From NCBI GenBank assembly GCA_026415505.1, contig JAOAGY010000032.1, positions 358,159-422,158 of the forward strand: a stretch of DNA of 64,000 bases. The letters are read 5' to 3'. The first letter of the stretch is position 1. Every line of letters begins with the position of its first letter. The translations under genes were made by a program, and so were the position numbers. The DNA is from Chlorobiota bacterium (GTDB lineage: Bacteria; Bacteroidota; Ignavibacteria; Kapaibacteriales; NICIL-2). The notes under the pieces were generated by a model. It saw only the letters and a list, made by a program, of their open reading frames with translations. It had not been told where the DNA came from and made no database searches. This document shows positions 25,912 to 30,140 of this stretch, piece after piece.

Positions 25912-28098
25912 TCAGGGTCGGTCGAGATACGCTCGCGATGGACGAGGATGTTCGACCTCGATTTTCACCGTCCGAGCATGAAAGCGACCTTCGGGGAGAT
26001 CGTTGTTGTAGTTGACCGTATCGGGTCCGATACCCTCTGTGTGTGCAACAGGATACGAGAGCAATTTGGCGACGGCTTCAGCACGTCGTTTGGATAGTTC
26101 CATGTTGTACTGTAACGAGCCAGTCCGATCGGTCGAGCCAACAACCGAGACAGTCGAGCCAGGTTGAATCCGTCCCCGAACGAACGCGATCACGGACCGG
26201 CTCGCCTCCGAAGGCTCAGATTTACCAGCATCGAAAAGCATCAGGATATACCGGTCAACTTCCGTCACTTGTTGCCGTGAGCGTAGTTCTACGAGTGTGA
26301 CGACGCTGAGTGGAATTTCGTGACGTTGCGTTTGCACGCCGACACCCTCTTGTTCGATACTGATAGAGACCAGCAGTGGCGAGCGATCGGACCGCGACAG
26401 CCTCTTCATAACGTCGCTGCCTAATTCGATATCGAGCTGCGACGGGCATTGCCCTTGTCCGCTTCCTTTGTAGAGGACGCGATGCGCATGTTCGACCGTA
26501 ATATTCCACCGTTGGATCGGTGTCGGACTGGCGATCTCCGTCGCAATTCGTACATGACGTGTCGCGCTGACGAGTGTCGTATCGCGTATCATGACTGGCT
26601 GCAGCAACTCGTTGTCCGAATACAACTCGACGCGCTGATTCTCGGTACTCCCATCGTCGTGCCGTTCATTCGATGGTTTTTTCGGAACTCCAACTGGTAG
26701 CAACTCGATGCGTGACGAGTCAATCTGCCACGTTTCGCGCAAGTAATTCGCTATAACTTCGGCACGCTGCCGAGCAAGATTCCGCCAGTTCGGAATCGCC
26801 TGCTGCTCGCGACGCGACACACAACCCTTGATTCGGATTGGTAGCGACGGATTTTGACGCAATCCCGAACCGATAATGTTGAGCAAAGAATAGTAGGTAT
26901 CCATTTGGTCCAGACTGACTCTCGGCACATATGCCGACGCATCATTTCGAGTGATCTGTCGGTATCGCGTACTCAAGGTGCTGGAACCATACTCAAAGAA
27001 CACATACGGCAGTAGGGGATGGAAATCCGTCCACACGATCTCTCGACAACGGAGAGTATCGAGCTCGACAAGAGTCGAATCCGGCATACGTTCGAAGACA
27101 TGCACGGCGATTGTCGCCGCCCCGATGGGCTTTTCTTTCCGAATGCGGCGTTCGTATATCTGGTGGCAGTGGACGTATTCGTATCGTGCATCGTCTGTTT
27201 CGTTGACCACCGTTCGATAGGTTGTTGAAATCAAGATCGTCGTATCGGTCTCGTTCTCGGGTACGACTTTTACCACTGTATCGCGCTGCATGAGCGTATC
27301 GCGAACTATCGGTTTGGATGTCGGGATCGTCACCTTCACCGAGACACCTGCACGAATCCACCACGAGCGCCACTGTAGATCAGTGGTGTGGCGTGCAAGC
27401 GGAATATTGACGAAGATTTCTGGGACTACCGCGAAACGTTTTTCAATCGGAACATTGTACGACAGCCCCACCAATCCGTAGAGTTCGTATTTCCGTGCAT
27501 TGGGTATGTCCTCCTCGATTGTACGCCGAACTGAATTACCTCCGACAAAGACTGCTTGGCTGCCCGAAACAACAACCTGCTCGGTCTGGCGAAACGTTGC
27601 CGAATACACCCACGCCACCCGTGCACCACCATGAAAGCGCAGATTGTCGTGGAACGGTGGTGTGTACTCGACCATCCCATCTCCGCCAAACGACGCCAAC
27701 GAAGCGGCTATCGAGTGAACGATCGAACCATCGGTCGGTACGCCGGCAACGATGAATCGTTGCGATTCGTGAGCAGCAAGTTCGACCCTTTGCAATGCAA
27801 AGCCGACGCGCAACGCTAAGTGGAACGACGCCGTCGTTTGATTGGCAGTAATCAGAGACGACAGGGGTGAATTGACGAGTGCCCCGAATGCAATTCCCTC
27901 GCCCGTAGCATCTCCGAACGGGACAGGGGGCTTCGATATATCGCCGAGTTGCGTAAAACCGCCTGTACGATGCAACGTCGCTCCGCCGTGCGAGAAAATG
28001 CCGAACTGGATCGGATTGGTCGTATCGATAACGATTTGTCCTACGACAGAAGCCACAGCTAACACGAAGGTACCGAGCCACTGAACAAGCGCTTTCAT
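25912..28098 (-). CDS. Secreted OmpA-family protein with two OmpA-like domains
   Basis: 728 aa with a signal peptide (first 20 residues, ending ASVVGQ). Residues about 25-255 look like an outer-membrane beta-rich region with repeated GARVAWVYSATF-like strands. Two regions resemble the peptidoglycan-binding OmpA C-terminal domain. The first, about 365-495, contains WRNLARQRAEVIANYL then ENQRVEL. The second, about 615-716, has GSTDRTGSLQYNMELSKRRAEAVAKLL. A linker with beta character separates them. It probably tethers the outer membrane to the cell wall. The ATG overlaps the stop of the upstream T9SS gene (ATGA), so the pair is likely one functional unit. Confidence 0.82.
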   Translation of the reverse strand: MKALVQWLGTFVLAVASVVGQIVIDTTNPIQFGIFSHGGATLHRTGGFTQLGDISKPPVPFGDATGEGIAFGALVNSPLSSLITANQTTASFHLALRVGFALQRVELAAHESQRFIVAGVPTDGSIVHSIAASLASFGGDGMVEYTPPFHDNLRFHGGARVAWVYSATFRQTEQVVVSGSQAVFVGGNSVRRTIEEDIPNARKYELYGLVGLSYNVPIEKRFAVVPEIFVNIPLARHTTDLQWRSWWIRAGVSVKVTIPTSKPIVRDTLMQRDTVVKVVPENETDTTILISTTYRTVVNETDDARYEYVHCHQIYERRIRKEKPIGAATIAVHVFERMPDSTLVELDTLRCREIVWTDFHPLLPYVFFEYGSSTLSTRYRQITRNDASAYVPRVSLDQMDTYYSLLNIIGSGLRQNPSLPIRIKGCVSRREQQAIPNWRNLARQRAEVIANYLRETWQIDSSRIELLPVGVPKKPSNERHDDGSTENQRVELYSDNELLQPVMIRDTTLVSATRHVRIATEIASPTPIQRWNITVEHAHRVLYKGSGQGQCPSQLDIELGSDVMKRLSRSDRSPLLVSISIEQEGVGVQTQRHEIPLSVVTLVELRSRQQVTEVDRYILMLFDAGKSEPSEASRSVIAFVRGRIQPGSTVSVVGSTDRTGSLQYNMELSKRRAEAVAKLLSYPVAHTEGIGPDTVNYNNDLPEGRFHARTVKIEVEHPRPSRAYLDRP

Positions 28099-30140
28099 TG
28101 GAACACGACTCCAACGACCAACGAACGCTCGCCACTGGCAACACGGAGGAAGTACATCCCGCTGGGCAGATCGCCACGAACAAGCATCACTCGACCATCG
28201 GCAAGTTGTGCTTGTGAGGGATGAAATGCCATGACCCGTTCGCCCATCGCAGTGTACAGCTCGACCAATGGAGCATCACTGGCGCGTGGGATCGAGAGAA
28301 CAACTACCGCCGACTCTTGGATCGGATTGGGCACGACGCTGACTGTAAACGCGCCACCTTCGGGACTGACTAAACGAATGCCCCAGGAATCTTGCCAAAT
28401 GTCTGTGAACGTGTAGTGTCCGCCCGATTGGGTATAGCTGGACACGATCCGCGTTCCAGAAGCATCGAGAAATTCCACAGAGTCAATTTCGACCGTCACT
28501 GATGGCAGTTCCCCAAGTGCAGCAACTAAACGAAGCAGTGCAACTGTGTCGCCTGAGCGAAATTTTCCCTCCTGCGGTCCGGTGTCGAGCCACTGAACGC
28601 AGTATCCATCGTAAATCGATTGGCGGAGATCGGAACGTAATGGCGCAGCAACAGTCGCATTCCAGCGCAAACGCAGGCGAAGCTGAACAGCTGGCAATAT
28701 CCCAAGCAATGCTGGTGGTTCCACCAGCTCATCGAGCACAATCGCGACCGTGAAAGTATCGTGCGTGCTGATCGCTCCGCTGCTGAGCCGGAACCGCGCA
28801 TGCATGTAGGGATACAGCCCAACCGTGAAATCGCCGCACATACCGTAAGCCCGCCGCTCACCGTACCCGATTGTCCAGCTTTGGAGGCGTCCCGCGGTTG
28901 CTTCGAGAGAATGTGCATCGTCACCGAGTCGGCGATACCCTATACGGTCGCTACTTCCTCGAACGCTCGCCCACTGACCGCTCCACGGTGCACCGTCAAC
29001 ACGTACCGATGACGTTGCACTACTATCGGCAGCGAGTACGATATACTGCTCCGAATACACCCGAAAGACGCCATCGCGAAGCTGCGGCGATACGACCTGT
29101 GCTGCAGGCATTCGTGCCGAGATGGGAGGAACCATCATTGCGCATCGTGCAGCGACATTTTCTGTACCCGGTCTTCGGAACACGAGCACCATAATCGGTC
29201 GAGATGACTCGAAGGCAGTACTGGCGGACACCTGTACCCGAACGCATTCTCCAGCGTTGACCATCACAGAGTCATCCCCGAAACGAATCCTGGTTGAGTC
29301 CCCGACCGCTGCGACGATCGCATCATCGTCACTGACGCGTGTGCCACCTGCAGGCTCGGGGAATGTCGGGACGACGTAGTCGGTTCCCCAATATTCTGCC
29401 GGGAGTAGTTGCTCGAAATACATACCGTCGCTCGTTCGTGAACCGAAGAATACGGCGACCGGTTGCGATGCACGAACTACAACACCCTCCGCATGCGTGG
29501 AATCGCGCGACGCTGCGGTTTCAATCAAGCACTGCTCGCCGGCATCGAGGAGAATGCGATGTTCTTCCCCAGGTCCGATCGTCGTTCCGTTGATGCGCAA
29601 CGGCGCTTGCCCAGCACGGAGAACGACTTCAGCGCTACTCGGTGACACGATTGACGCACGGATCGGGTATGGCGAGCTATCCTGTGCTACTCCTGCTGAA
29701 AGTGGCAATTGCGTCGGTACAATGTATGTTCGATTCAGTACTACGTTCGGCAGCACTGCTGTCGCCTCGCCACCGAGACTATCGCTTGCCATTGCAGCGA
29801 CGAGAATAGGTTCGTCCGAATGCAAGCGAATCGTTGCACACGGGGAGAGTCCGTAGGGTTGTGCAAGATGAACACGTGGTATTGCGACTCTGACACTGTT
29901 GCGGGGATCGCTGAGCCTAACCGTTGTTGTGTATTCTATCCCATCTGCACATGCGACGTAGGCGATCGAGCAGGTCGTTGCATTCGATGGCAGAAGAAAA
30001 AGGTACAGCGAGTCGCTCTGTACATTTCCGACGATGCTCCCGAACGAAACCACAAAGTCCGTCCCCCACAGCGCGCCCTGCGCCAAAAGCGGCAGCGGTA
30101 TCAACAAAGCCACCAGCATACGTAACAACCGTCCTTGCAT
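28095..30140 (-). CDS. Secreted protein with IgGFc-binding-like N-terminus and T9SS sorting domain
   Basis: 681 aa with signal peptide (LRMLVALLIPLPLLAQGA). The start of the mature part, WGTDFVVSFG, and the later EYWGTDYVVPTF recall the IgGFc-binding N-terminal fold found in many secreted Bacteroidota proteins. That call is from memory and tentative. The C-terminal 85 residues form a T9SS type A sorting domain: VSVVPNPIQESAVVVLSIP, VELYTAMGERVMAF, LPSGMYFLRVASG. The protein is thus predicted to be exported across the outer membrane and probably surface-attached. It overlaps the OmpA-family gene by 4 nt. The function is unknown. Confidence 0.8.
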   Translation of the reverse strand: MQGRLLRMLVALLIPLPLLAQGALWGTDFVVSFGSIVGNVQSDSLYLFLLPSNATTCSIAYVACADGIEYTTTVRLSDPRNSVRVAIPRVHLAQPYGLSPCATIRLHSDEPILVAAMASDSLGGEATAVLPNVVLNRTYIVPTQLPLSAGVAQDSSPYPIRASIVSPSSAEVVLRAGQAPLRINGTTIGPGEEHRILLDAGEQCLIETAASRDSTHAEGVVVRASQPVAVFFGSRTSDGMYFEQLLPAEYWGTDYVVPTFPEPAGGTRVSDDDAIVAAVGDSTRIRFGDDSVMVNAGECVRVQVSASTAFESSRPIMVLVFRRPGTENVAARCAMMVPPISARMPAAQVVSPQLRDGVFRVYSEQYIVLAADSSATSSVRVDGAPWSGQWASVRGSSDRIGYRRLGDDAHSLEATAGRLQSWTIGYGERRAYGMCGDFTVGLYPYMHARFRLSSGAISTHDTFTVAIVLDELVEPPALLGILPAVQLRLRLRWNATVAAPLRSDLRQSIYDGYCVQWLDTGPQEGKFRSGDTVALLRLVAALGELPSVTVEIDSVEFLDASGTRIVSSYTQSGGHYTFTDIWQDSWGIRLVSPEGGAFTVSVVPNPIQESAVVVLSIPRASDAPLVELYTAMGERVMAFHPSQAQLADGRVMLVRGDLPSGMYFLRVASGERSLVVGVVFQ

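Follow-up and report, generated by a model that had tools for sequence, protein, structure and literature searches.

Introduction

Retention of proteins exported by the type IX secretion system (T9SS) has been described for a few model species, through anionic lipopolysaccharide (A-LPS) with PorV for cargos with type A tails and through PorP/SprF proteins for those of type B. In Porphyromonas gingivalis, PG1035 is a type B cargo bound by PorP, which PorE presumably tethers to the wall (PMC9143113). In Flavobacterium johnsoniae, cognate SprF-like shuttles adjoin most type B cargos, a static role has been proposed for cargos whose genes accompany a PorE-like gene, and the genes Fjoh_3952-3951-3950 lie together (PMC12618676). 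Both PorP-PorE-PG1035 and Fjoh_3952-3951-3950 combine a T9SS cargo, a cargo-binding barrel and a peptidoglycan-tied OmpA protein, and we find putative counterparts of these elements in a pair of overlapping genes within a 64,000-nucleotide stretch of DNA (the window; contig JAOAGY010000032.1) from an uncultured Kapabacterium. The pair encodes a T9SS cargo of 681 residues and, directly after it, a protein of 728 residues, termed the anchor here after its proposed role. It differs from the PorP-PorE systems in that an eight-stranded barrel and two OmpA folds form one chain, that the type A model recognises the cargo tail, which comes after a cohesin-fold domain, and that no gene of the genome exceeds the PorP/SprF cut-off.

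In the reading we favour, to which we assign a probability of about 0.62, the 728-residue protein serves the T9SS cargo of the preceding gene as a dedicated outer-membrane anchor, holding this cargo outside and gripping peptidoglycan inside. That reading builds on the recurrence of the pair, the way in which the domains of each protein are arranged, the single peptidoglycan-binding triad that is intact and the co-variation of cargo C terminus and barrel, each read from sequence or model.

Results

Recurrence of the gene pair across the order

Both open reading frames (ORFs) lie on the minus strand, cargo first and anchor second, and cargo stop and anchor start share the four nucleotides ATGA; the cargo has a signal peptide, judged by eye. 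A preliminary description, made from the sequence alone, had reported this overlap and taken the genes to be probably made together. Its coordinates are borne out, and coupling fits both the overlap and the co-occurrence of the pair in relatives. The two closest named relatives of the 728-residue protein come from Candidatus Kapabacteria metagenome-assembled genomes (69 and 65% identity). An alignment-based contig scan found 343 relatives, a tblastn contig scan with the single anchor protein having found none; the best 80 of the 343, fetched by similarity to the 728-residue protein only, bear labels that include Kapaibacterium, Ignavibacteria, Chlorobiota and Bacteroidetes, and in a few cases an unexpected name. 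At 67 of these 80 loci an upstream gene is present, on the same strand in 61. A T9SS tail (E ≤ 0.1) is carried by 49 of these 61 next-upstream genes and by 7 of 100 control genes sampled from the 210 other genes of the same loci (Fisher p = 3e-22, uncorrected for the relatedness of the loci, which are not independent). The gap between cargo and anchor genes among the 61 is −4 nt in 12, −1 nt in 7 and at most 100 nt in 54; seven upstream genes end more than 100 nt away, by crude gene calls based on codon-usage scoring.

Our check for the window pair itself covered three of the five congeners, G002 and G004 lying outside it, and found the pair in all three: G001 (L063 = L147), G003 (L152) and G005 (L062 = L148). 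The anchor is 64–67% identical over the fetched part and the cargo 43–50%. At L062 and L063 the four-nucleotide overlap is identical and, by eye, the neighbours are those of the window (glycosyltransferase, pseudouridine synthase, NuoF-like protein and cytidylyltransferase). The genome of the window holds nine full relatives of the anchor, and six of these nine paralogs come directly after a cargo gene whose product has a T9SS-like end; among the six cargos, that of the window and C28 pass TIGR04183, C6, C17 and C29 fall below its cut-off, and the tail of C12 is seen weakly, by Pfam only. An alignment of the nine relatives finds at least ten matches in each of 61 out of 61 genomes from genus to order, lower bounds on copy number (no more than 19 candidates were scored per genome) in which single OmpA domains can be included, so that not all are separate full-length proteins. 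A profile of the barrel alone, for which no more than nine candidates were scored per genome, matches 47 of the 296 genomes sampled across the phylum, namely 25 genomes listed from genus to order (at least nine each), seven class-mates (three with at least nine) and 15 more distant genomes (one each). The window pair is one copy of an order-wide module, whose bearers carry many pairs with differing surface proteins; that it is a real, recurrent two-gene module is well supported by layout and recurrence.

Some neighbourhoods of anchor relatives have other contents. L065 (4344–5843) and L067 (4325–5833), both on the plus strand, carry the same gene of about 500 aa directly upstream of anchor relatives, and this is not a T9SS cargo. 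At L020 (4984–10211, plus strand) two genes that by eye are ABC exporter-like and membrane-fusion-partner-like come after an anchor paralog with no cargo beside it, and at L013 (8071–9006, plus strand) the gene for a 311-aa protein, by eye a lytic transglycosylase of MltB type, overlaps the end of a dual-OmpA gene.

The anchor joins a barrel to two OmpA folds

An AlphaFold model of the anchor (mean pLDDT 88.8, 76-sequence alignment) contains an eight-stranded barrel, a beta domain, a first OmpA/Pal-like domain (OmpA-1), an Ig-like domain and a second OmpA-like domain (OmpA-2; Table 1); the low pTM of 0.53 means that the placement of the domains relative to one another is not settled. The barrel matches NspA (1p4t, Z 15.8), OmpA (1qjp, Z 15.0) and OprF (4rlc, Z 15.1) in the PDB, and also OmpW in the Z 15–16 range. 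Escherichia coli OmpA and Pseudomonas aeruginosa OprF likewise combine an eight-stranded barrel with a periplasmic peptidoglycan-binding domain, but they have one OmpA domain and are not known to have a paired secreted cargo, whereas the anchor adds the beta domain, OmpA-1 and the Ig-like domain between barrel and OmpA-2.

Two peptidoglycan-binding-like domains had been proposed for this protein. Pfam finds two OmpA stretches and the model gives two OmpA folds, OmpA-1 (model residues 356–496) matching Pal (4pwt; Z 14.7, 113 aligned, root mean square deviation (RMSD) 2.4) and OmpA-2 matching Acinetobacter baumannii OmpA (3td5; Z 13.9, 111 aligned, RMSD 2.1). PorE holds the stem peptide through the side chains of Asp576, Asn584 and Arg591 (PMC7192894). 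By PorE spacing, OmpA-2 carries this triad as D657 (76 of 76 sequences), N665 (73 of 76) and R672 (76 of 76). The corresponding sites of OmpA-1 have Arg445 in 76 of 76, Asn at 438 in 46 and Asp at 428 in 14, and the window protein has Ser428, Trp438 and Arg445, an incomplete triad. The proposal holds for the folds and, for binding, is narrowed to OmpA-2: there are two OmpA folds and, judged by residues, one complete putative peptidoglycan-binding site. A C-terminal OmpA domain with an Asp-Asn-Arg triad is shared with PorE, in contrast to which Pfam finds no TPR or propeller in the window anchor; the full-length PorE model (NCBIfam) scores 19.2 bits against a cut-off of 600, in the OmpA part only.

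Differing heads precede a shared cargo C terminus

The IgGFc_binding head of the cargo, its cohesin-fold domain and the size and place of the anchor's barrel were absent from the preliminary description. In structure searches of the C-terminal model the cohesin-fold domain matches 2jh2 (Z 12.6, RMSD 2.4, 122 aligned), nearly all of the top 28 rows being cohesin-bearing chains, and the C-terminal domain (CTD) that forms the T9SS tail matches those of PorU (6za2, Z 10.8) and PorZ (5m11, Z 10.4). By sequence, neither a Pfam cohesin match in the window cargo nor a match in a PDB sequence search with it appears at E ≤ 1, and the Pfam T9SS tail model stays under its cut-off (17.3 versus 27). The head is probably adhesive. 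Cohesins bind partner proteins in cellulosomes, and a fold predicted to be common to both is no proof that the cargo binds a partner.

Heads vary among the cargos of this genome: DUF7948 with SBBP and Ig, a weak VWA, a weak WD40/HYDIN-like match, CAP with an Ig-like domain, and PKD with weak SprB repeats. Their C-terminal parts align, that of the CAP cargo excepted, whose partner has PD40 repeats where the barrel would be. Most paired cargo C termini hold a common cohesin-fold domain ahead of the T9SS tail. A hidden Markov model of this domain scores C6 at E 8.5e-20, C12 at 2e-14, C17 at 7e-13, C29 at 4e-9 and the window cargo at 0.0085, as well as a cargo without adjacent anchor (L027, 13561–17646) at 7.5e-11; its training set took in almost every upstream gene, with or without a tail, so that its own upstream count (56) is circular and unused. 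Two alignments of the upstream cargos leave out 13 of the 61 upstream genes, mostly without a T9SS-like end by eye.

Variant arrangements of these parts occur. At L017 (5591–8314, plus strand), in the genome of the window (G000), a protein with PD40 repeats and two OmpA domains, a PorE-like layout, follows a CAP-domain T9SS cargo without a cohesin domain. L028 (11251–13944, minus strand) has a single-OmpA protein directly after a T9SS-tailed gene (29.8 bits) without a cohesin domain (E 0.41). At C40 of G000, one 864-aa frame (L288, 2269–4860, minus strand) joins IgGFc_binding (PF17517, 279.7 bits) to a C-terminal barrel of the window family (E 4.5e-16), domains that are separate genes in the window, and adjoins an ORF with a T9SS-like end. 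At C6 of the same genome (L287, 1948–7156, minus strand) a barrel ORF that lacks OmpA domains (344-aa frame) comes directly after the gene of an IgGFc-binding protein whose end is T9SS-like.

Table 1. Positions of the two genes and their parts in the window
Feature	Positions	Strand	Evidence
T9SS cargo gene, 681 aa	28095..30140	minus	ORF; PF17517 85.5 bits; TIGR04183 25.5 bits
IgGFc_binding (PF17517) head, residues 126-414	28899..29765	minus	Pfam, E 5e-24, 85.5 bits
Cohesin-fold domain, residues about 445-580	28401..28808	minus	AlphaFold model of residues 440-681, pLDDT 88.9
Trp582, Cys in most paired cargos	28395..28397	minus	codon TGG; Cys in 43/47 aligned cargos
T9SS type A C-terminal domain, residues 596-681	28098..28355	minus	TIGR04183 25.5 bits, cut-off 23
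4-nt overlap ATGA (cargo stop / anchor start)	28095..28098	minus	sequence
Anchor gene, 728 aa: barrel, beta domain, OmpA-1, Ig-like, OmpA-2	25912..28098	minus	ORF and AlphaFold model
8-strand outer-membrane barrel, residues 31-257	27328..28008	minus	AlphaFold model
Barrel loop 1, residues 45-63	27910..27966	minus	outside by barrel topology; window without Cys, most relatives two
Beta domain, residues 264-360	27019..27309	minus	AlphaFold model
OmpA/Pal-like domain 1, residues about 361-496, triad incomplete	26611..27018	minus	model and alignment
Ig-like beta domain, residues 502-600	26299..26595	minus	secondary structure of model
OmpA-like domain 2, residues 608-719, triad D657/N665/R672	25942..26277	minus	PF00691; model; alignment

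The barrel varies with the cargo C terminus

Across six genomes, a hit of the anchor alignment, which was built from 75 of the 80 loci (without ORFs below 640 aa and L113), lies no more than 1500 nt downstream of 35 of the 88 cohesin-domain hits. Every one of these 35 partners matches in the barrel; they comprise 23 of the 44 hits to barrel plus OmpA and 12 of the 29 to the barrel only, and four of them lie in frames of 262–314 aa, with no room for OmpA domains. None of the 16 OmpA-only hits (0/9 with OmpA-1 and OmpA-2 only, 0/7 with OmpA-2 only) follows a cohesin cargo, nor does the one other hit (0/1); OmpA-only hits may hold a barrel too divergent to match, as at L016 (weak OMP_b-brl_2). 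A strict rule by which each anchor adjoins its cargo was rejected, many cargos and barrels lying apart.

Pairwise distances over 43 pairs (L062, L063, L072 and L091 left out as near copies), uncorrected for the species tree, correlate at r = 0.73 for barrel and cohesin domain, 0.76 for barrel and CTD, 0.74 for barrel and OmpA-2, and 0.65 for OmpA-2 and cohesin domain; the partial correlation of barrel and cohesin domain given OmpA-2 is 0.49, and that of OmpA-2 and cohesin domain given the barrel 0.23. At the level of sequence, the cargo C terminus tracks the barrel about as closely as the barrel's own OmpA-2 domain does, and the barrel looks like the cargo's partner.

Joint retention and loss of cysteines in barrel and cargo

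Loop 1 contains two cysteines in most barrels, and most cargos have one between cohesin domain and CTD. The 121 readable pairs, some loci being counted twice, divide into 112 with both, eight with neither, one with the cargo cysteine only (L165) and none with those of the barrel only. Clustering at 95% barrel identity (n = 104) leaves 97 both, six neither and one mixed, and clustering at 40% (n = 28) leaves 24, three and one (p = 0.001). The sample combined 115 barrel places (G000 rows, late-starting matches, a few contig-end rows and the last rows excluded), four places picked for an adjacent cargo (L258–L261, so that L261 was preselected) and eight loci of the window's genome; the unreadable pairs L218 (a run of N) and L179 (whose cargo tail holds a cysteine by eye) were dropped. 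Both partners' cysteines are missing in the window lineage, L099 and L261, with Trp at the cargo place in the window lineage and L261. An intermolecular disulfide from barrel loop 1 to the cargo cysteine would explain their joint keeping and loss. The candidate rule that the cysteines are confined to paired barrels was rejected, since they are also present in 43 of the 50 barrels beside which no cargo was recognised.

Secretion machinery and relation to PorP/SprF

The genome encodes SprA (915 bits) and PorU (766.8 bits), both over cut-off. For PorP/SprF (TIGR03519, cut-off 90.55 bits) its only match, at 11.6 bits and E 0.14, lies inside the barrel of a paralog of the window anchor. Over that cut-off, PorP/SprF is found in 13 of 61 phylum genomes, in none of five of the order (this one included) and in none of ten class-mates. 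Compared by hhalign, the barrel and PorP/SprF profiles align over 121 columns (probability 79.3, E 1.5e-5), barrels being generally alike and the comparison having no control barrel family. The anchor gene directly follows a T9SS cargo gene, as PorP/SprF genes do. By analogy, then, the module would work like PorP/SprF plus PorE, yet it falls outside the PorP/SprF family by the cut-off test. For the short barrel-only frames after cargos, the nearest parallel is SprF-SprB of F. johnsoniae, in which a barrel gene adjoins a surface adhesin gene; there the cargo is a gliding adhesin with a type B tail, whereas the cargo tail here is type A-like and the six-genome partners are more often barrel plus OmpA (23) than barrel only (12). 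We found no description of the module in literature on Kapabacteria, Ignavibacteria, T9SS, cohesin and OmpA, as covered by titles and abstract starts (subscription papers and preprints outside, wider topics in part).

Discussion

A surface protein paired with a wall tether, as first suggested for this locus, fits the evidence, with the amendment that the tether also holds an outer-membrane barrel, seemingly its cargo-facing part. We propose that the cargo would exit through SprA, whereupon its cohesin-fold domain and T9SS tail would be captured by the outer face of the barrel; in most pairs, though not that of the window, a disulfide bond from the cargo cysteine to loop 1 of the barrel would perhaps lock the capture. 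With OmpA-2 gripping peptidoglycan in the periplasm, the head would be displayed on a wall-fixed stalk. This head would be exchangeable, an IgGFc_binding domain in the window, and one chain would do the job of PorP/SprF plus PorE in Bacteroidia.

Several observations weigh against such a dedicated anchor. The capture step is our deduction, and the distance correlations behind the partnership carry no species-tree correction. The window's cohesin-fold domain is divergent by sequence, reaching E 0.0085 with a profile from which its lineage was left out (a strong match to another profile had the window in the training set). There is no anchor-alignment hit within 1500 nt downstream of 53 of the 88 cohesin-domain hits, and no recognised cohesin cargo upstream of 47 of the 115 tested barrel places; some orphan cargos of F. 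johnsoniae share a distant shuttle (PMC12618676). Loss of both cysteines is confined to three lineages, the window pair being among those without them, and, as 43 of the 50 barrels with no recognised cargo alongside keep them too, they may serve otherwise, for instance in a bond within the loop. Type A tails in Bacteroidia go to PorV and become A-LPS-linked (PMC9143113; PMC12618676). With PorU also encoded in this genome, the cargo may lose its tail by cleavage.

In P. gingivalis type A tails are processed by PorU, whose presence would also suit a barrel that acts as an export shuttle like SprF, merely steadied by its OmpA domains, with the cargo released or moved to an anchor such as A-LPS; PorP/SprF-like proteins are cognate shuttles of adjoining cargos (PMC12618676). 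A wall-binding domain better suits a static anchor, and static behaviour is proposed in that study for F. johnsoniae cargos with a PorE-like gene beside their own; the homology of the barrel to PorP/SprF stands at 79% probability over 121 columns without a control barrel family; we regard a shuttle as unlikely, if the most serious competitor to the anchor. Less probable still is that the two are merely co-transcribed envelope genes, the 728-residue protein an ordinary OmpA-like stabiliser and the cargo anchored otherwise. OmpA-like proteins are common envelope stabilisers, and many barrels and cargos do lie apart, but the specific recurrence of a single gene order with heads that differ, the co-loss of cysteines and a distance correlation of cargo with barrel above that with OmpA-2 all speak against simple co-transcription. 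PorE, with its OmpA domain, is a T9SS component (PMC9143113), so the 728-residue protein might be a surface sensor or a T9SS assembly factor near the wall, with the cargo as ligand or regulator. At least ten profile matches per genome in 61 of 61 genomes, and paralogs of one genome adjoining differing cargos, are unlike one machine part and make this role very improbable.

More tentatively, and with the odds against it in its full extent, the dedicated anchor could be one case of an order-wide Kapabacterial display system, in which a cohesin-fold plug and sorting tail are captured by the cargo's own wall-tethered barrel, mostly with a disulfide link, OmpA-free barrels would be a mobile or releasable version, and the fused chain would replace PorP/SprF-PorE in a lineage that lacks the PorP/SprF family. 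Such a system would show that private outer-membrane partners exist for type A tails as well. The two-gene unit of exchangeable heads, cohesin-fold plug and wall-fused barrel offers a testable alternative for cargo retention, and would give a rule for guessing cargo-anchor matches in uncultured bacteria.

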